IMG/VR virus record: IMGVR_UViG_3300032238_001072
Coordinates: 1 to 48,395 of that record
Length of the DNA: 48,395 bases
Direction: 5' to 3' (one strand)
Origin: a virus
Shown here: positions 18,774-46,121 of the stretch, one piece after another
How the letters are laid out: every line of letters starts with the position of its first letter
Numbering within the stretch: the first letter of the stretch is position 1
Translations under genes and position numbers: made by a program
The notes under the pieces: model-generated
The model's input: the letters and a program-made list of their open reading frames with translations, nothing else
Database searches by the model: none
Told to the model about the DNA's origin: nothing

Positions 18774-19283
18774 ATTGAAACTATCAAAGCTAATTGGAAA
18801 TGGCGCACGACTGATGGTCTGGCTGTGCCAGTTCCAAATGTCACAGTCTCTGGTTTCGCAGTGGACCCTGAGGGTTACTTCCCCTTGATCTACCGTGGAC
18901 CAAATGTCCGCTCAGCTAAGAACTGCTGGTCATTGCCATCTGGTTTGCACGAATGTGGTTTTACCTTGGCCCAACAATTTGCAGTTGAGCTCAAGGAGGA
19001 GCTTAACCTTGACGCAGATTACTCAAAGGCCAAGATGGTTGGTGTTTACGAAAATATCGCGGCAGTTGATAACTGGCACTGGGTGATCACTGCCATGGTC
19101 ATGCCAGTTAAGACGCTGGACACCATGGTGAATAACGAACCAGAGAAACACCCAGAAATGATAAAAGTGCACTACACAGAGTTGTCAAAGAAGATTCTTG
19201 ATCTCCAGTGGGCCCCATCACTAGGGCCATTCCTGAAGGACAACTATGATGTCATACGTAGTGCTATTATGGACCTGCTCTAA
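18771..19283 (+). CDS. NUDIX-like hydrolase with degenerate box
   Basis: About 170 residues with a NUDIX-type beta-alpha-beta layout. The box region reads GLHECGFTLAQQFAVELKEE. It keeps the three glutamates of the metal-binding ELxEE helix, but the usual Arg before them is Val and the Glu of the GET/GES turn is Phe. It may hydrolyse a nucleoside diphosphate derivative with altered specificity, or may bind without catalysis. I prefer GTG 18771. An upstream TTG at 18723 would overlap the divergent gene. It is coupled to the gp47 nuclease by TAATG. Confidence 0.6.
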   Translation: MIETIKANWKWRTTDGLAVPVPNVTVSGFAVDPEGYFPLIYRGPNVRSAKNCWSLPSGLHECGFTLAQQFAVELKEELNLDADYSKAKMVGVYENIAAVDNWHWVITAMVMPVKTLDTMVNNEPEKHPEMIKVHYTELSKKILDLQWAPSLGPFLKDNYDVIRSAIMDLL

Positions 19284-20335
19284 TGCGATTCCTAATCTAT
19301 GGTGATCTCCAGGCTGCTGATGGCCATGAGAGATGCTTCAATGACCCAAGCATGCCACTGCAAAGGTGGCGTGTCAATACCTTCATGGAGTTTCTTAGAG
19401 AGACTTATCTTTCTAAGGATTGCCAGGGTTTGATTGACCTTGGAGACACCACGGATGATCGTCAGGCCATTCCAATTCCCACAATACATTCAGTTCTAAC
19501 ACCACTTTCAAAATTTCAAGGCCACAACATCAAGCTCATTGGCAACCATGAGCAGTGGCTTCGTAGCACAGAAGTTCATCCTGGTGTCATGTACAGTGGC
19601 ATCTTCACTGTGGTTAAGTCACATGAAGTGATTGATATTCCAGGTTGCTCAGCCGTTTTTGCCTGTGTCTCCTACATTGACAATGAGGAGGAGCTGAAGA
19701 AGACTGTCACTGAGACAATCAAAGCAGCTAGGTCTGTGGCAGGTAAGCGTAAGGTAATTCTGCTGGGCCACTTCTCAGTCCAAGGTGCTATGGCTCATGG
19801 CATGGCGCTGCAAGACGGACTTGTCAATGAAGACATACCCAAGGTTGATGCAGCCTTTCTGGGACACATTCATAAGTTTCAAGAGTTTAAGCCCAAGCAT
19901 TTCTATGTAGGTTCACCATTTCAACAAGACTTTGGTGAAATTAACGAGACCAAGTATGTGATGGTCTTGGACACGGACACCGGACGAGTTGAGCCGGTGG
20001 ATACCGTGATGCCCAAGTACCACAGACAAACGCTTGACCAGTTTGAAGCTACAGTCCGAGCTGAGTCTGAGGACCGGTTTGAAGTTAAGCTAAAGTCCTT
20101 TGAAGAGGCCCAAAGATTCTATGGCCACCCACTCTCGCACAGAGCCATACCAGTCTATGACTATGTGGAATCAGCTCCCAATCAGCCTAATGTGGAGTCA
20201 GTTCACAGAGAGATAGTCTTTGATGTTCACAGTCTGATGAAGGCCTACGTGGAGAACAACCCACCAGCTAAGAAGGGCATTGACATACCTGATGAAGATC
20301 TGTTGTCATTCGGCCAAGATCTAATGTCTCACTAG
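19283..20335 (+). CDS. Recombination nuclease subunit gp47 (SbcD/Mre11-like)
   Basis: Calcineurin-like metallophosphoesterase forming the nuclease half of a Mre11-Rad50-type complex that resects DNA ends. Metal-site motifs are YGDLQ (Asp8; the usual D-x-H is D-x-Q), DLGDTTDDR (Asp55), GNHE (88-90 region), GHFSVQGAMAHG and GHIHKF. The length of 350 is close to T4 gp47 (339). Its partner gp46-like ATPase lies 24 kb away at 44184-46121, whereas in T4 the two genes are close. It ends in TAG before a 104-bp promoter region. Confidence 0.9.
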   Translation: MRFLIYGDLQAADGHERCFNDPSMPLQRWRVNTFMEFLRETYLSKDCQGLIDLGDTTDDRQAIPIPTIHSVLTPLSKFQGHNIKLIGNHEQWLRSTEVHPGVMYSGIFTVVKSHEVIDIPGCSAVFACVSYIDNEEELKKTVTETIKAARSVAGKRKVILLGHFSVQGAMAHGMALQDGLVNEDIPKVDAAFLGHIHKFQEFKPKHFYVGSPFQQDFGEINETKYVMVLDTDTGRVEPVDTVMPKYHRQTLDQFEATVRAESEDRFEVKLKSFEEAQRFYGHPLSHRAIPVYDYVESAPNQPNVESVHREIVFDVHSLMKAYVENNPPAKKGIDIPDEDLLSFGQDLMSH

Positions 20336-28921: not shown

Positions 28922-28960
28922 GACACTAAGAACATGCATCGGTTCATGTTCTTGAAAGGT

Positions 28961-29557
28961 ATGAACGTTACTTTCGCCTTTTCAGGTCCCTGTAATGCTG
29001 GAAAGACTACACTAATGCACAAGATCAAGGACCGGTTTGGCAGCAGGGTCCACATTGTGGGTGAGTGCATCAGAGACAAGATCACATCAATTGATGTGGT
29101 CAGAAACTCGGCACAAAACTACTTCAGACTGCAGCAGAAGGTAGTGATGGAGAAGATTCGCCTTGAGGATGAAGCTCAGCATGGCAGTGGCAAGTTGATC
29201 CTAGTGGACAGAAGTTTGGCCGACTCACTTTTCTACACGACTTTCTACATTGATATCAAGGCTCTCACTGAGAATCAAAAGGTTGAGTATGTCAATTTCG
29301 TAAAGACAGTCACTGAGACAGCCAAGGCCAAGAAAAGGTATGACATCGTGTTCATGATGCAACCACTGCCCATCACGATCAAAGACCCCATGAGGCCGAA
29401 TGATCTGATGGTCACTCAGACCATTGAGCACCAGCTCATTGAAACTTTGAACATTGGTTTGTTTACAGGATTGTCCAAGTTGACTAAGGTAGACGTACGC
29501 AAGGAAGAAGACCAAATCCTCAGTGCCTGCGAGGAAGCCTTGTCAGAAATTGCATGA
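28961..29557 (+). CDS. P-loop nucleotide kinase, probable hydroxymethyl-dCMP kinase
   Basis: 198-residue P-loop kinase: Walker A SGPCNAGKTTL directly after the first strand, a central LILVDRSLADSLFY segment resembling the Asp-Arg catalytic region of deoxynucleoside/nucleotide kinases, and a helical lid. ATG 28934 is an alternative start adding nine residues. It overlaps by ATGA the dCMP-hydroxymethylase-like gene. T4 uses its gp1 kinase to phosphorylate 5-hydroxymethyl-dCMP made by gp42. The same role is inferred here from context, because the fold alone does not fix the substrate. Confidence 0.8.
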   Translation: MNVTFAFSGPCNAGKTTLMHKIKDRFGSRVHIVGECIRDKITSIDVVRNSAQNYFRLQQKVVMEKIRLEDEAQHGSGKLILVDRSLADSLFYTTFYIDIKALTENQKVEYVNFVKTVTETAKAKKRYDIVFMMQPLPITIKDPMRPNDLMVTQTIEHQLIETLNIGLFTGLSKLTKVDVRKEEDQILSACEEALSEIA

Positions 29558-30342
29558 ACCTCGTCGTAGACAACGTACCACAAGCATTCTCCCAACTAAA
29601 CAGACACCTCAGTGAGTCAGGCTCCGAGGTATCTGGATATTTGGAGGCCATTAACGCTAGGATTGTAATCAACAACCCTCAGCAGAGGGTGGCCGCTGTT
29701 CGTAGTGACAACGGCTGCTTTGTCCCCTACATGGGACTTCAGTGGGCATGGTATGCCTATACACACCAAGACACGGCCCTGAAAGAATACTACCCAGAGG
29801 CCTGGCAGAGAGCCACTAAAGGTGATGTTAACTCAAACTACGGTCAGTATGTTTGGGCTGAATCACAATTCCAAAACTGCTTCAAGTTGTTGCGTGATGA
29901 TCCTAACACACGCAGAGCGGTGATCATGTTCAACCGAAAGGAGGTGGCCATGTCATCTACAAATGACCATATCTGCACTACGTCTCTTCAGTTTTTGGCT
30001 CGTGATGGTCAACTTCACTTGATAACCACTATGCGGTCCAACGAATTGCACTTTGGATTTCGCACAGATGTAGTGTTCTTCACAATGCTTCAAGAGATTA
30101 TGGCCACAATTCTTGGCCTTAAACTTGGTACTTATTGCCACAATGTTGGGTCACTCCATGTTAAGAAAGACAAGATCACACACGAACATGTCACATTGAT
30201 TGACTGGCCCAAGTTTTGTTTCGCAGAGCTACCACACCTCATTGAACTCAGACAGTTCTTTAACCCAAATCCAAAATTTACCAAAAGCACGTTTGAACTG
30301 ACCAACCTTTTACAAGACAATCTCAGATTTTTTAAGTCATGA
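29554..30342 (+). CDS. dCMP hydroxymethylase-like (thymidylate synthase family)
   Basis: 262-residue thymidylate-synthase homologue distinct from ThyA at 2585. Family marks are SNYGQYVW, DDPNTRRAVIMF, the catalytic Cys141 in DHICTTSLQF, and RSNELHFGFRTDVVFF. In that last motif Asp172 stands where ThyA has Asn. This is the change that lets dCMP hydroxymethylase (T4 gp42) recognise cytosine. Predicted reaction: dCMP plus methylenetetrahydrofolate to 5-hydroxymethyl-dCMP. ATGA overlaps link it to the kinase upstream and the carbamoyltransferase downstream. Confidence 0.87.
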   Translation: MNLVVDNVPQAFSQLNRHLSESGSEVSGYLEAINARIVINNPQQRVAAVRSDNGCFVPYMGLQWAWYAYTHQDTALKEYYPEAWQRATKGDVNSNYGQYVWAESQFQNCFKLLRDDPNTRRAVIMFNRKEVAMSSTNDHICTTSLQFLARDGQLHLITTMRSNELHFGFRTDVVFFTMLQEIMATILGLKLGTYCHNVGSLHVKKDKITHEHVTLIDWPKFCFAELPHLIELRQFFNPNPKFTKSTFELTNLLQDNLRFFKS

Positions 30343-32072
30343 ATCTTCTGCTTACACTGGGCCACAATTCATCTGCAATCCTGACTGATAATGACCAGCG
30401 AATCACTGCTGGTTATGAAGAGGAGCGCCTTAATCGAGTCAAGAGCTCCTCTCAATTTCCAAAGCTTTCGATTGAGGAGTGTTTCAAGAATACGTCAGGC
30501 CATGAACATGATAGGGGCTATCTTTACGTGTCCCACTGGTTTGACGATTTTGACTTTCATCGCAATGGCTTCAGCGACAAACACTGGGATCCGTACCAAG
30601 TCAAGGCCATCTGTGATTCACACAATATGGAACTGGTGACTCTAACATCTCAGTTCACTCATCATGATGCCCATGCTTGGGCTGCACGAGCTTTCTTTGA
30701 GGCGCACAGCCTTCCTCTGGATCCCATCCACATCTGCGTGGCTGATGGTTTTGGCAACAAGGAGGAAGTCTTCTCTGTCTACAAATGGACTCCTAAGAAG
30801 GAGAGCATGCAGTTGGTCCATCGAGTGTATGGCTACGAAAACTCGTTGGGCTTGCTTTACCAATATGCTACATCATACTGTGGCATGAAGGAAAACCAGG
30901 ATGAGTACAAATTCCTGGGATATGAGACTTGGGTGGATGATGTCCTGACTAACAAGGAAATCGCTGATCTTCAAAATGAAGCATCGGCCTGGGCATCAAA
31001 GTATCGTTCAGCTCAAAGTCCTCAAAGCACCAATAAGTCATACATCAATGTGGATCGACTGATCCAAGTTAAGAATGACCTGTGGGCCAAGTTTGATGTG
31101 GTGATTGAGACAACCACAGGCAAGAGCAAAGCAAGCTTTAGCAAGAGTGACTTGCGTAAGATCATTGGCCACTTCGTCCAAAGTGTGATTGAAGCCTACT
31201 ACACTGATGTGATCGAGGAATTCTCGATTGACAACATCATCGTCACTGGCGGTCTGCACTACAATGTTAAGCTGAACAACCACATCTTGGCCAGAATTCC
31301 TGGTGAGTTCTGCGCCACTCCTCTGGCTGGTGATCAAGGTGCAGCCATTGGTTTGATGCGTTATCACGAGGGATCAGTCCTTGGTCTTGACAGTTTACTT
31401 TGGGGACACAGAGACCTCTCAATACCAAACACTCTTGTGGCCAATGGCCATGAGTTCAAGCCGGGTCACTTCTACTTCAACAACAAGCAGAGCTATGTTG
31501 ATTTTGTGGTTTCTCAGCTGAAACTCAATAAAATTGTGAACACAGTGACTGGACCCATGGAATTTGGTCCTAGGGCCCTGTGCAACACAACGACATTGGC
31601 TCTGCCCACAGAGAAGAATGTGGCCACTATCAACTCACTGAATGGCCGTGACACTGTCATGCCCATGGCGCCAGTGATGTTGAAGCAATACGCCCACGAG
31701 TTTTTCAGCCATCAGGACATCAGTCGAGTGGCTGGTTCACTTGAGTACATGATTCTTACCTTGGATTACCATACCACTGTGGATGTCAACCGATTCCGGG
31801 GTGTTATGCATCCCTATCCAAAGTTTGGCCGAAAGTACGGTTACTCTGGGCGTCCTCAGTTGATTGAAGTCAACAACATTCAACCGATCTCCAACATCTT
31901 GCGTGGAATGTACCCACAGCATCCAGCACTGATCAACACATCGTTGAATGTTCATGGTGTGCCGATTGTCTTCTCAGCCCAAGACGCCATCAATGACATG
32001 GCTTTCAACTTGGATGAGGCTCGTGATCAAGGACTGGAACAACCCATCCTTGTTATTGGAAACTTCAAGTGA
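30339..32072 (+). CDS. Carbamoyltransferase (NodU/TobZ/CmcH family), probably acting on hmC
   Basis: 577 residues with both halves of the family. The N-terminal Kae1-like half shows GHNSSA (8-13), GYEEERLNRVK (25-35), HHDAH (108-112), which binds metal and carbamoyl-adenylate, and a VTGGLHYNVKLN loop. The C-terminal half shows GPMEFGPRALCNTT near residue 404 and NTSLNVHGVPIV. These enzymes move a carbamoyl group from carbamoyl phosphate, via carbamoyl-AMP, to a hydroxyl. Fused by ATGA to a dCMP hydroxymethylase, its natural acceptor would be the hydroxymethyl group of 5-hydroxymethylcytosine. Carbamoylation of hmC by phage enzymes of this family has been reported from metavirome work. Confidence 0.9.
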   Translation: MNLLLTLGHNSSAILTDNDQRITAGYEEERLNRVKSSSQFPKLSIEECFKNTSGHEHDRGYLYVSHWFDDFDFHRNGFSDKHWDPYQVKAICDSHNMELVTLTSQFTHHDAHAWAARAFFEAHSLPLDPIHICVADGFGNKEEVFSVYKWTPKKESMQLVHRVYGYENSLGLLYQYATSYCGMKENQDEYKFLGYETWVDDVLTNKEIADLQNEASAWASKYRSAQSPQSTNKSYINVDRLIQVKNDLWAKFDVVIETTTGKSKASFSKSDLRKIIGHFVQSVIEAYYTDVIEEFSIDNIIVTGGLHYNVKLNNHILARIPGEFCATPLAGDQGAAIGLMRYHEGSVLGLDSLLWGHRDLSIPNTLVANGHEFKPGHFYFNNKQSYVDFVVSQLKLNKIVNTVTGPMEFGPRALCNTTTLALPTEKNVATINSLNGRDTVMPMAPVMLKQYAHEFFSHQDISRVAGSLEYMILTLDYHTTVDVNRFRGVMHPYPKFGRKYGYSGRPQLIEVNNIQPISNILRGMYPQHPALINTSLNVHGVPIVFSAQDAINDMAFNLDEARDQGLEQPILVIGNFK

Positions 32073-32302
32073 TCATTCTAGAAGTCCAACAGTCGCTGCA
32101 AGTGGAAACGCCCAAGGGGCGTGGTCGCGTGTGGCTGGTGACAGATTATGGCTGTGAGATTGAAAAGCTATTCACGGTCATTCTGGATGAATCTGGCGAG
32201 ATTTGGGAGTTCACCAACAAGGATGTCAGAGCCACGTCGAACACAACGATGGGCAGAAAATCTTGTTTACAGTCAAAACCAATTAAAGTAGAAGAAGCTT
32301 GA
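32069..32302 (+). CDS. Small hypothetical protein (77 aa)
   Basis: Beta-rich protein starting with GTG in a GTGA overlap with the carbamoyltransferase stop. VWLVTDYGCEIEKLFTVILD and IWEFTNKDVRA suggest a small beta-barrel. The basic C-terminus contains MGRKSCLQSK. It could be an accessory of the modification enzymes given its coupling, but no family is recognised. Confidence 0.65.
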   Translation: MIILEVQQSLQVETPKGRGRVWLVTDYGCEIEKLFTVILDESGEIWEFTNKDVRATSNTTMGRKSCLQSKPIKVEEA

Positions 32303-32817
32303 TGAAACTCAGTGATCTAAACAAAGAGCAAGCCATTCAGACCCTGAATAGGGTTGAGAAAGCGCTTGCTACAAAGTTGACTAAGTCAGCTATCGTGGCT
32401 GAGCTAGCCTCACAGAAGCTGTGCTCACCCAACTCCAGTGGTATTGAAAATACCTTGATTAAGGTGGCCACCAATCATGGCTATGTGCCACCACTCTTGG
32501 CCAAGCTTATGGGTGTCAAGCCCAATGTGGCTGGAAATGAAAAGTCTCACCCTTGGATCGACAAGAAGGAGGGTCTTCCTCCGGTCCCTCCGACCCAGAC
32601 GAGCAAGGCCGGTCCAGCCTCTACCCAAAAGGCGGAGCGACGTCTGGTGCCAACCACGGCGTTTGTCCTCAACGGAGTGAACCTGAGGGCCATCTCGATT
32701 GTGGAAATCGGCAAGAAGTCCTCAGAGCTTTACCTGAAAGACGGGACCGTGGTGACATCCTCAATCACAGAAGAGACCTTCTTGAAAAACTGCAAGGTAC
32801 TCGAACTCGGCGACTGA
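32302..32817 (+). CDS. Hypothetical protein with helical N-domain (171 aa)
   Basis: Residues 1-75 are helical (LNKEQAIQTLNRVEKALATK, then KSAIVAELASQKL). A Pro/Thr-rich linker (90-115) and a small beta domain at the C-terminus (FVLNGVNLRAISIVEIGKKS) follow. ATG 32302 shares the A of the previous TGA stop. A TTG one codon upstream is not needed. Part of the operon downstream of the DNA-modification genes, function unknown. Confidence 0.68.
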   Translation: MKLSDLNKEQAIQTLNRVEKALATKLTKSAIVAELASQKLCSPNSSGIENTLIKVATNHGYVPPLLAKLMGVKPNVAGNEKSHPWIDKKEGLPPVPPTQTSKAGPASTQKAERRLVPTTAFVLNGVNLRAISIVEIGKKSSELYLKDGTVVTSSITEETFLKNCKVLELGD

Positions 32818-39573: not shown

Positions 39574-40317
39574 ATGTGCGCTATTATTGGCTGGAAAGGT
39601 AAGATTGGCAAGGGATTTCTCCGTGAGTTTTTTAGACGCGCGGAGGCCTCAGGCCCCATGTCCACTGGTCTCATGACCATTGATGACGTGGGAAAATACA
39701 AAGGTGGAGGTGAGCCTACGCTTGATCTCTGGAAGAAAGCTATCACAGCTTCTCAGGCCTTGAGAAACCACAACCACAGGCTTGATCGTCAGTCGACCCA
39801 CTCCATGGGGATTGGTCACACACGCTATGCAACTCATGGACGTATCTGTGATGAGAATGCCCACCCATTCTCAGACGGCGGTGCGCATTTTGTGCACAAT
39901 GGAGTGATCAGCAACTATCGTCAAATCAAGTCTGATGCAATTGTGGATTCTCAGTGTCTTGGACCTCTCATCCACGCACGTAATATCGCACCTGCTTGGG
40001 GATCTGTTGGTCTGGCTTGGTTTGAAAAGATCAATGGCCAGTGGAAGATGTTCGTGTATAGACACCAGCAAAGCCTGATGGTTGCACAGGGAATGGTGGT
40101 TGGAGACTGCGGAACACTGACGCCCGCAGTTCTGGTCGCATCACGGTCTCACCACTTTCCTAAAAATCACATCCACAACATGACCACACTCGAGCTGCAA
40201 GAGGGTGTGGCCTATGAGGTGACCAATGATGGCATTGTTGAAGCTTGGCGTAACTCAAGTAAAGCCCAGACATTCGTCCGCGAAACCCACAAGAATGGGT
40301 GCTACATCGGTGGTTAA
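39574..40317 (+). CDS. Stand-alone class II glutamine amidotransferase
   Basis: 247-residue Ntn-hydrolase glutaminase domain like the N-terminal half of GlmS/PurF/asparagine synthetase. Cys2 becomes the N-terminal nucleophile after Met removal (MCAIIGWKG). Conserved motifs are GIGHTRYATHG near residue 77, HFVHNGVISNY near residue 105 and DSQCLG near residue 124, where a Glu is common in place of Gln. No synthetase domain follows, so a partner must use the released ammonia, or the protein hydrolyses glutamine on its own. Preceded by the best sigma70-like promoter of the window. Its stop is shared (TTAA) with the hub gene. Confidence 0.88.
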   Translation: MCAIIGWKGKIGKGFLREFFRRAEASGPMSTGLMTIDDVGKYKGGGEPTLDLWKKAITASQALRNHNHRLDRQSTHSMGIGHTRYATHGRICDENAHPFSDGGAHFVHNGVISNYRQIKSDAIVDSQCLGPLIHARNIAPAWGSVGLAWFEKINGQWKMFVYRHQQSLMVAQGMVVGDCGTLTPAVLVASRSHHFPKNHIHNMTTLELQEGVAYEVTNDGIVEAWRNSSKAQTFVRETHKNGCYIGG

Positions 40318-44183: not shown

Positions 44184-46121
44184 ATGTCACAGTTCAAGCT
44201 TCGGAAAATCTACCTTAAAAACTGGATGACAGTCCGTGAGCAGGAGATAGAGTTTCCAAGCCATGGCCTGGTTTTTGTCTCAGGCGTTGATGAGTCATCC
44301 CAGTTTGAGTCCATTGGCTCAGGTAAAACCAGCCTGGGTGAAGCACTCAGCATGGCCGTGTGTGGTATTCGAGGACGATATGCTTCATTGGGTCACTATA
44401 GCACTAATGAGAAAGGCAACACACTTGTCAAGGTTGAAGGCAGTTTTGGTGGCAAAGACTTGGCTATTGAGATGGGCTACAAGTACAAGGAACTGTCAAA
44501 AACAGGTGAGGGTCTTAGGTTCACTTTAGATGGTTCAGCCATTGCTAGATCCCACGTAAACCTGACTAGAAATGAACTGGGACAAACTCTTGGAATAACC
44601 CCAGAAGTGGCCATGTGGTCTGTCTATGTGGATGGCGACCAACTGGATTTTAGCTCGCTATCTCAAACTGAGGCTGTCGAGTTGATGATGTCTGCATTGG
44701 GACAGCCATCATGGTCGTCATACTACGACAAAGCCAAAAAGACCTTGACTGAGTTGAAGAGTGATGTTGCGGCCAAATCATCATCAAAAGAAACCCTCTT
44801 GGAGCTCATTGATACAACCAAGCAAAGTATCATCAAGGCAAGTGAAGCCCTAGACCGAGAGAATCTGGCTTTTGAATCTCAGAAGGAAACCATGGCTCAG
44901 CAACTGACTGAAACCCAGCAGAAGCTTGGAGTGATTCAAGACCAGATTAAAGAAAGGGCCAACAAACGCAAAGACATCAAGGCCAAGATCAAGAAAGTTG
45001 AGGATGAATTGGCTGAGCAAAACAAGGCTTTAGAGATCGTTGAGATGCGCTTAAGAAACGAGAAAGCTGCCATCTCACAGGAGAAAAAGCCACTATCTCA
45101 GCTGGAAAATCAAATCAGCAGTGAGCACTACAGAAGTGATTTAGACCTTAAAAGCCTGAAGCTTAAGCCCAAGGAGTGTCCCACGTGTAAGAAGCCGTGG
45201 GACAAAGGACCATCTGATAGTGACATTGAAAAGGCCACGAACAAGGTCACCCAGGTCTTAGAAAAGCTCAGTGGCATCAGGGCCCAGATTGACGAAATTA
45301 CTAACAGAGAAGACGCCAAGCAAGATGAGATTGACGAACATCAGAAGAAACAGCGTCAGCTGAATGTCAAAGACCAAGTCAGAGGATTCTCAACTGAGTT
45401 GGACACTTTAGACCGGTTGGATGCCAAAGCTGCAACTGAGTGCACAGCCCTCAGCGTACAAGTGGCCTTGTTGAGTAAAGGCCCTTCCAATTCTGGAGTG
45501 GTCAAGGCCCAAGGAGTCTTGGACTCCAAGCAAGCTAGTCTGGTCGAATATGAAGGAAAACTGGCCAGCGTCCAATCTGAATTGGAAGAGAACCAGCAGC
45601 TTTGCAAAGTGGTTGAGTATTGGTCAGGTGCTTTCAACTCATCCGGCATTCCCAACATGGTGCTATCAAGGTCTGTCGATCCACTGAATCAAGTTTCAAT
45701 GGCTCTGTCCCACAGAATGTCTGGAGGTACCCTGGGCATCACTTATGAGACAACCAGAGAGTTGACCAACGGAGCTGACAAAAACTGCCTGAACATAAAG
45801 GTGAAGAATTCCAGAGGTGCTTCCAGAGTGGCTGGCAATTCAAAAGGTGAGAGTGGCCTGACCAACCTCATTGTTGCAGAGACAATCACTGAAGTTGGTC
45901 GTGTGTCATCACGCATTGGTTTCCGTTGGTATGACGAGGTCGTCAACTCACAGGATCCAAAAGTACGCAAGTGCATTCTGGCCTATCTCAAGGAAACAGC
46001 TCAGAGATTGGGCATACTTATCTTCGTGGTTGATCACCACCCTGAAGTCTCAGCCTATGCTGATCATGTGCTGAGAGCAACCAAGAGCAAGGAAGGTGTC
46101 ACCACCTTCTCATGGGTCTAA
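44184..46121 (+). CDS. Recombination ATPase gp46 (SbcC/Rad50-like)
   Basis: 645-residue SMC-type ATPase, partner of the gp47 nuclease. Walker A is SIGSGKTS (43-50). Two long coiled-coil arms (about 190-320 and 345-480) flank a zinc hook Cys-Pro-Thr-Cys at 332-335. The C-terminal ABC half has the signature region GNSKGESGLTNLIVAET and a Walker-B-like strand FRWYDEVVNS, where Asp-Glu is retained but the surrounding hydrophobics are atypical, followed by IFVVDHHPE. The complex processes DNA ends for recombination-dependent replication. Confidence 0.92.
   Translation: MSQFKLRKIYLKNWMTVREQEIEFPSHGLVFVSGVDESSQFESIGSGKTSLGEALSMAVCGIRGRYASLGHYSTNEKGNTLVKVEGSFGGKDLAIEMGYKYKELSKTGEGLRFTLDGSAIARSHVNLTRNELGQTLGITPEVAMWSVYVDGDQLDFSSLSQTEAVELMMSALGQPSWSSYYDKAKKTLTELKSDVAAKSSSKETLLELIDTTKQSIIKASEALDRENLAFESQKETMAQQLTETQQKLGVIQDQIKERANKRKDIKAKIKKVEDELAEQNKALEIVEMRLRNEKAAISQEKKPLSQLENQISSEHYRSDLDLKSLKLKPKECPTCKKPWDKGPSDSDIEKATNKVTQVLEKLSGIRAQIDEITNREDAKQDEIDEHQKKQRQLNVKDQVRGFSTELDTLDRLDAKAATECTALSVQVALLSKGPSNSGVVKAQGVLDSKQASLVEYEGKLASVQSELEENQQLCKVVEYWSGAFNSSGIPNMVLSRSVDPLNQVSMALSHRMSGGTLGITYETTRELTNGADKNCLNIKVKNSRGASRVAGNSKGESGLTNLIVAETITEVGRVSSRIGFRWYDEVVNSQDPKVRKCILAYLKETAQRLGILIFVVDHHPEVSAYADHVLRATKSKEGVTTFSWV

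Follow-up and report, generated by a model that had tools for sequence, protein, structure and literature searches.

A carbamoyltransferase from a sewage phage contig, the one phage enzyme of this kind expressed by Yang et al. (2021, eLife; PMC8670742), was shown there to convert 5-hydroxymethylcytosine (hmC) in DNA, and also hydroxymethyl-deoxycytidine triphosphate (hm-dCTP), to 5-carbamoyloxymethylcytosine, using carbamoyl phosphate and ATP. A homologue of this enzyme is encoded in a stretch of 48,395 nucleotides, positions 1-48,395 of IMG/VR record IMGVR_UViG_3300032238_001072 (the window hereafter), where it forms an operon with a kinase and a thymidylate synthase (TS) homologue. The window resembles the system of Yang et al. 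in the full-length homology of the transferase, in a shared motif, in the pairing with a TS homologue and in the predicted product, 5-carbamoyloxymethyl-deoxycytidine (5-carbamoyloxymethyl-dC). Unlike that system, it couples to the transferase a deoxynucleoside-kinase-like enzyme and a TS homologue that lacks a catalytic Glu; the word kinase occurs zero times in the main text of PMC8670742. As the best overall explanation, and with moderate confidence, we propose that this operon serves a large tailed phage as a cassette for carbamoylating the cytosines of its DNA.

The three genes are joined by ATGA at both junctions (29554-29557 and 30339-30342):

28961..29557, + strand: P-loop kinase, modelled with a deoxynucleoside-kinase / NadR-kinase fold; 198 amino acids, with P-loop GPCNAGKT and a DRSLADS motif (Pfam, PHROG and structure model)
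29554..30342, + strand: putative TS-fold cytosine-nucleotide enzyme, a paralogue of deoxycytidine monophosphate (dCMP) hydroxymethylase without the catalytic Glu; 262 amino acids (residues and structure model)
30339..32072, + strand: homologue of 5-hydroxymethylcytosine carbamoyltransferase, NodU/TobZ family; 577 amino acids (Pfam, PHROG and homology to the characterised enzyme)

The kinase open reading frame (ORF) has an alternative in-frame ATG at 28946. In Pfam, the kinase matches AAA_28 (2.2e-14), the TS homologue Thymidylat_synt (6.8e-14) and the carbamoyltransferase both Carbam_trans_C (1.2e-23) and Carbam_trans_N (2.3e-17); the last also has a PHROG carbamoyltransferase match (1.8e-62). 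A preliminary description of this DNA had proposed three overlapping genes of these families, and its gene positions and junctions are borne out, with all three genes on the + strand, as are the families, by Pfam matches far above chance and by strong PHROG matches of all three proteins. The cytosine-selecting Asp (position of T4 Asp179), the HHDAH motif and the GPRAL-type motif that it named, the last as EFGPRAL, are all seen in the window proteins.

The window carbamoyltransferase aligns with the proven hmC enzyme over its full length (residues 2-557, 35% identity, E 2e-89). The motif EFGPRALCNTTT is identical in the two proteins. Gly stands in place of its Cys in a cyanophage enzyme, where the motif reads EFGPRALGNRSI, and in solved antibiotic carbamoyltransferases (GPRALGNRSI or GPRALGHRSI). 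This Cys follows EFGPRAL in 37 of 42 rows of the family (the exceptions are loci L003, L004 of phage Xp15, L022, L036 and L038), and seems to mark the hmC carbamoyltransferase family as a tendency, not as a strict rule. The proven enzyme scores 369 bits against the transferase of Xp15, 278 against that of the window, 37 against a Pelagibacter phage enzyme and 25 against the cyanophage one.

Carbamoyltransferase matches occur in 39 of 50,697 phage records, 12 of them covering at least 80% of the query, and a scan of viral contigs gave 37 loci. These 37 contigs and three phage records make up a set of 40 transferase loci. A TS homologue is in view near the transferase in 37 of the 40, and in the remaining three (L006, L040, L041) the transferase is truncated at a contig end; a query with an ordinary TS that the window encodes outside the operon found no additional TS in these 40 loci. 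All 45 TS homologues near the transferase, together with that of the window, have equivalents of Asp179, Asp145 and Cys148, the last followed by Thr (T4 numbering here and below). Judged from sequence, the window carbamoyltransferase is thus paired with an Asp-type TS homologue (29554-30342, Asp172), as is the hmC type. Because of the full-length homology to a proven enzyme and the signature Asp in all nearby TS homologues, 5-carbamoyloxymethyl-dC is the best prediction for the product in the window phage, and since the homologous enzyme was proven in 2021, this chemistry would be of an already known kind. The preliminary description had pointed to a phage carbamoyltransferase from metavirome work acting on hmC, which Yang et al. 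indeed proved (PMC8670742), and had predicted carbamoylated hmC for this phage. The transferase homology and the signature Asps of 45 of 45 neighbouring TS homologues uphold this prediction, but the middle gene and the kinase are not as it described them.

In phage T4 dCMP hydroxymethylase (gp42), Asp145 is reported to distinguish hydroxymethylases from TS, and Glu60 is described as a catalytic residue, highly conserved across all TS, CMP hydroxymethylase and dCMP hydroxymethylase members, that activates methylene-tetrahydrofolate (PMC6400193). A Ser replacing Ala176 of MilA is said to accompany a preference for dCMP over CMP (PMC5175136). The window TS homologue shares with gp42 its fold and the equivalents of Cys148 (Cys141 in the window protein), Asp179 (Asp172), Asp145 (Asp138), Ser94, Tyr96, Arg123, Arg124, Ser169 and His216. 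The Asp145, Ser94 and Tyr96 equivalents, which form the signature of hydroxymethylases versus TS, lie in motifs NDHIC and NSNYG; Ser162, in MRSNE, occupies the position of T4 Ser169 and MilA Ala176, and Arg-Arg stands at 123/124. The best folds for the structure model (predicted local distance difference test score, pLDDT, 92.4) are MilA and T4 dCMP hydroxymethylase, followed by AfhB, an enzyme with flavin adenine dinucleotide (FAD). However, Glu60, Tyr218 and Asp171 of gp42 correspond to Gln, Lys and Glu in the window protein, and the alignment around Glu60 is ungapped (YMGLQWAWY versus YIQRELEWY).

Replacement of this Glu is not confined to the window: among 46 rows, the Glu60 column has Glu in 29 and Gln, Met, Leu or Ile in 15, window included (Glu-less hereafter), and two rows are cut. 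All 15 Glu-less rows keep Ser94, Tyr96, Arg123, Asp145, Cys148, Asp179 and His216, and 14 of them keep Ser169. Residues that are invariant across the 29 Glu rows are changed in these proteins, namely Tyr56 (Lys in 10 of 15), Trp82 (Tyr in 10 of 15), Asp171 (12 of 15) and Tyr218 (6 of 15). From these counts, the folate side appears altered and the nucleotide side almost intact. Of the two Glu-less clades, that of the window has the less altered folate side, as it retains Tyr56 and Trp82. A Glu60 copy is also present nearby in eight of the 14 other Glu-less loci (L002, L022, L023, L024, L025, L027, L029 and L033, of which L023 and L024 are near-duplicates), and none is in view in L005, L007, L009, L021, L030 and L031. 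Because the folate-activating Glu is gone and relatives with a Glu-less copy often have a complete hydroxymethylase, the operon TS homologue is probably a cytosine-nucleotide enzyme but not the main hydroxymethyl-dCMP synthase. The identification of the middle gene as the dCMP hydroxymethylase, made in the preliminary description, is therefore not retained.

A more distant complete copy is found in G017, a 230-kb record that contains locus L085. This record has the same gene order as the window (kinase, Gln-type TS, transferase), it is broadly collinear with the window at 32-71 kb, and 36 of 61 window ORFs have a homologue in it. Its complete Glu60 hydroxymethylase is located at 188 kb, ~140 kb from the operon. 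Contig L101 also carries a Glu60 hydroxymethylase, and 5 of its 15 genes match G017 genes at 181-191 kb, in orientations that partly differ. The tetranucleotide correlation of L101 with the window is 0.945, compared with 0.941-0.986 in the window clade and 0.539 for the corresponding part of G017. We infer that L101 belongs to the clade of the window and carries its true hydroxymethylase.

Directly behind the L101 hydroxymethylase is an Amidoligase_2 gene (L101:6771-7874), with a homologue close behind the hydroxymethylase in G017 (189534-190784) and another in L103; this gene possibly represents a further modification step, or is unrelated. A tubulin/TubZ-like gene is also found near the L101 hydroxymethylase (L101:2903-4036), and has homologues in G017 and L103. 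Some large phages have a tubulin spindle.

AfhB, the dCMP hydroxylase of phage HY126 (PDB 9iqu; 9iqc with dCMP and FAD), is a TS-fold phage enzyme that acts on dCMP with a changed cofactor. An AfhB-like enzyme has been described as a homologous but distinct 5-hydroxy-dCMP synthase (PMC13390438). Gene 42 of Edwardsiella phage PEi20 (L043:1489-2187) is annotated as dCMP hydroxymethylase, and this annotation is probably wrong, because the protein is almost the same as the FAD-linked AfhB (9iqu). In PEi20 gp42, Ser94 is replaced by Thr and Asp145 by Glu while Glu60 is retained, the last reading coming from one alignment, with the column shifted in another; the window protein shows the opposite pattern. 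The Thr and Glu of PEi20 gp42 may be a mark of the AfhB type, which would place the window protein, with Ser and Asp, outside it.

The kinase model (pLDDT 88.8) matches human deoxycytidine kinase (dCK) in Foldseek (E 2e-6, TMq 0.64). VIA-align matches it to NadR kinase (Z 16.9, root mean square deviation 2.7, 171 aligned), dCK (Z 15.7, 3.9, 193 aligned) and the cytidine kinase AbmG (Z 15.2, 3.5, 191 aligned). According to the model, the operon kinase has a deoxynucleoside-kinase / NadR-kinase fold. T4 gp1, a deoxynucleoside monophosphate kinase, presumably shares its role of charging modified dCMP, but the two show no BLASTP similarity (E 0.23), which leaves room for a distant relation, and we dropped homology to gp1 as an identification of the kinase. 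That gp1 is not among the best 50 matches of each fold search (Foldseek and VIA-align) carries no weight. The 5-hydroxymethyldeoxyuridine DNA kinase of thymidine-hypermodifying phages is another kinase described in a phage base-modification pathway (PMC7653180); unlike the role proposed for the window kinase, it phosphorylates the base hydroxymethyl group in DNA. Because the middle gene has no folate-activating Glu and the kinase, with its dCK/NadR-type fold, has no BLASTP similarity to gp1, the cassette is probably not complete within the window contig, whereas the preliminary description saw the kinase as completing a compact cassette. In L010 (10140-11414) and L080 (6670-7944), the kinase ORF is 424 amino acids long, and in L010 Pfam places a uracil-DNA-glycosylase superfamily domain after the kinase.

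Members of the kinase family are located near the transferase in 18 of the 40 loci. Among the loci read, a Glu-less TS occurs only beside this kinase, in 13 of 18 non-redundant kinase loci versus 0 of 15 others (Fisher p 2.9e-5, with shared ancestry uncorrected and labels assigned by hand). This count omits near-duplicates (L005, L006, L008, L024, L028, L031, L034 and L039), cut loci (L040, L041 and L075), L010 (TS N-terminus unread), L091 (no TS in view) and L093 (no transferase). Another small P-loop ORF is present in 12 of the 15 transferase loci without this kinase; the background of 0.15-0.18 per 17 kb is rough, coming from two phage records in which two of three matches are the cassette kinase itself, and its ORFs were overlap-filtered, those of the 15 loci unfiltered. 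In bacterial genomes, one peptide pattern for the kinase family gave 15 candidate stretches, of which 0 were confirmed. Comparison of the three-gene order, suggested in the preliminary description, was made on viral loci: the three genes directly follow one another or overlap, in the order kinase-TS-transferase or transferase-kinase-TS (coordinates entered by hand). Clustering of 36 loci, including the window and with 11 left out, gave no fourth gene common to all kinase loci.

The tree contains two separate Glu-less clades, each with an ultrafast bootstrap of 100. We do not claim that Glu60 was lost twice, because an approximately unbiased test on a quick tree leaves a single clade unrejected (p 0.329). 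In L037, sister to one of the Glu-less clades in the tree (node support unread), the TS of the trio still has Glu60, and the linkage of the three genes may therefore predate the loss of Glu. Within the window clade, the TS copy changes fastest, with a nonsynonymous divergence (dN) of 0.29-0.31; the transferase has 0.13-0.17 and the kinase 0.05-0.08. For the TS copy, the proportion of nonsynonymous differences (pN) is well under a nearly saturated synonymous proportion (pS).

In the pathway that we propose, a complete dCMP hydroxymethylase, encoded beyond this contig to judge from relatives, would make 5-hydroxymethyl-dCMP, and the operon kinase would phosphorylate the modified deoxycytidine (mono)phosphate on its way to the triphosphate. 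The carbamoyltransferase would use carbamoyl phosphate to form carbamoyl-adenylate, and pass the carbamoyl group to the oxygen of the hydroxymethyl group, either in hm-dCTP or in DNA that contains hmC. The product, shown for the characterised relative, would in the window phage also be 5-carbamoyloxymethyl-dC, and the carbamoylated cytosine may block restriction. The Glu-less TS paralogue keeps a cytosine-nucleotide site and the attacking Cys, without the Glu that activates methylene-folate. It may use covalent Cys-C6 chemistry on a cytosine nucleotide, with no folate step, alongside the kinase and transferase, a tentative assignment to which we give somewhat less than an even chance.

Further observations bear on this account, several of them against it. 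A kinase profile scan of viral contigs gave 23 loci, 21 of them with a transferase (17 on contigs already known and 4 added), which speaks for the cassette, but the profile was built from transferase loci and the scan is biased towards such loci. No transferase is in view in L075, which is cut. L093 also lacks one, across a record of 52 kb, and the tie between the kinase and carbamoylation is therefore not a strict one. In L093 (7971-10227), the kinase lies near a TS that has the cytosine Asp but LPAC in place of the hydroxymethylase Asp and is probably a dCMP methylase. Because of this TS type, a kinase for 5-substituted dC nucleotides is favoured over a kinase for the hydroxymethyl group. 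Also in favour, tblastn with the kinase, and equally with two divergent members of its family, recovers 6 of 50,697 phage records. These are the six Bacteroides phages in which the transferase, too, was found, although they look like one lineage. L011, L018, L037, L080 and L092 have the kinase with a Glu60 TS only, and the proven transferase is nearer to that of Xp15, a type without this kinase, than to that of the window. Moreover, no second hydroxymethylase was found in the window record, nor in the 44-, 62- and 93.6-kb records of close relatives. The 93.6-kb record, the longest of the window clade, itself looks incomplete, because a search for family A DNA polymerase, which G017 encodes, found none in it (the search covered this polymerase family). 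The assignment of L101 to the clade stands on composition and synteny with G017, and the fast change of the TS copy also fits decay. A dUTPase-family gene is present in 10 of 20 kinase loci, in 0 of 15 others and also in L093. In the window clade, searches for a cytosine-exclusion enzyme were all empty: dUTPase and dCMP deaminase are each found in 0 of 7 records, and PRA-PH in 0 of 7 of a partly different set, records that may be fragments. As these three were not found in the records searched, replacement of cytosine may be total or partial.

The operon TS could itself be a working dCMP hydroxymethylase that tolerates Gln, in which case the three genes would suffice for 5-carbamoyloxymethyl-dCTP or the corresponding DNA. 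Retention of the remaining hydroxymethylase residues (including Asp145, Ser94 and Tyr96), the best folds, the lack of a second copy in the window or close relatives, and the L037 trio with its intact Glu60 would all fit. Several relatives with a Glu-less copy nevertheless hold a second, complete copy, and Tyr218 and Asp171 differ as well; we regard this explanation, which is that of the preliminary description, as unlikely. It is more doubtful still that the Glu-less protein is decaying or structural, with no catalysis, for instance as the heterodimer partner of a complete hydroxymethylase. Its gene changes fastest of the three, and the active sites of the dimer are described as shared through Arg123 and Arg124 from the other chain (PMC6400193), but all 15 Glu-less rows retain the catalytic Cys, Asp145 and Asp179, pN is much lower than pS (though pS is near saturation), and the coupling with the neighbouring genes persists in both gene orders. 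Such a role is compatible with the same DNA product and overlaps the explanation we prefer, so the likelihoods given here do not sum to one.

A more elaborate possibility is that the Glu-less TS acts downstream, attacking C6 of 5-CH2-X-dCMP and expelling X (carbamate added by the transferase, or phosphate added by the kinase), after which another nucleophile adds to give a hypermodified cytosine in place of 5-carbamoyloxymethyl-dC. None of the 15 Glu-less rows departs from the nucleotide site, Cys or Asp145, although residues of the folate site vary, both Glu-less clades are seen only beside the kinase and transferase in the loci read, a cofactor switch in this fold has already been seen in AfhB (structure with dCMP and FAD), and an amidoligase gene stands behind the complete hydroxymethylase in L101, with a homologue in G017. 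Against this, clustering gave no nucleophile-supplying gene common to all such loci, the retained Asp145, which activates water in T4, suggests water as the nucleophile, and no such product is known. We consider this explanation improbable, and equally so the related idea that the kinase-linked TS paralogue is a new type of TS-fold enzyme that dispenses with methylene-folate activation. Through its retained Cys and cytosine-binding Asp, it would exchange the activated group of a 5-carbamoyloxymethyl- or 5-phosphomethyl-deoxycytidine nucleotide for another, and carbamoylation would be an activation step towards hypermodified cytosine. Lastly, NodU/TobZ-type enzymes mostly carbamoylate small molecules, and the window transferase might, in the manner of NodU, TobZ and GdmN, act on a sugar or on a metabolite resembling an antibiotic, with its TS neighbour a coincidence. 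Other genes do adjoin the transferase in two phages of the cyanophage/Pelagibacter phage kind, but the cyanophage and Pelagibacter phage enzymes score only 25 and 37 bits with the proven hmC enzyme, compared with 278 for the window's, and an Asp-type TS is associated in 37 of 40 loci, which makes a non-DNA substrate highly improbable. The carbamoylation cassette with a separate hydroxymethylase remains the explanation that we prefer.

Further genes of the window bear on the extent of the operon and on nucleotide synthesis:

32069..32302, + strand: possible fourth gene; 77 amino acids, with a GTG start that overlaps the carbamoyltransferase stop
32299..32817, + strand: possible fifth gene, possibly co-transcribed; 172 amino acids
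2585..3673, + strand: ordinary thymidylate synthase, outside the operon; Asn at the selecting position, LPPCH

Among the loci searched by tblastn, homologues of the 77-amino-acid ORF are found only in L005-L009, the closest relatives. The 172-amino-acid ORF also has tblastn homologues in L005-L009, clusters in addition with L021 and L085, and gave no family match in Pfam and PHROG searches. The ordinary TS contrasts with the operon copy in its Asn, and its presence makes dTMP synthesis independent of the operon copy. It has 362 amino acids versus 329 in the 93.6-kb relative, the extra residues lying shortly past the catalytic Cys of LPPCH. Elsewhere in the window, a protein with a class-II glutamine amidotransferase domain (GATase_6; 39574-40317) is encoded adjoining a tail protein gene, with homologues in G005 and G017, and SbcD-like (19283-20335) and SbcC-like (44184-46121) subunits are encoded 24 kb apart.

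Among open-licence papers, preprints excluded, we found no report of a cultured phage with 5-carbamoyloxymethylcytosine, and Yang et al. (2021) is the only relevant paper we found on this chemistry. Although the chemistry itself is published, what is new here is that a deoxynucleoside-kinase-like enzyme is coupled to the transferase, together with a TS paralogue that lacks the Glu. Where hosts are on record, the transferase occurs with the kinase in six Bacteroides fragilis phages; it is also present in Acinetobacter phages and Xp15, in which a search for this kinase found none. Bacteroides phage BF486P2 is one isolated phage that has the complete kinase version of the cassette. The gene of this operon that is likeliest to be annotated as a hydroxymethylase is probably not that enzyme, and the Glu-less paralogue is a caution that the cytosine-selecting Asp alone is no proof of a dCMP hydroxymethylase. 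It also raises a question of enzymology, namely what role a TS fold may have when it keeps its nucleophile but does not activate folate.

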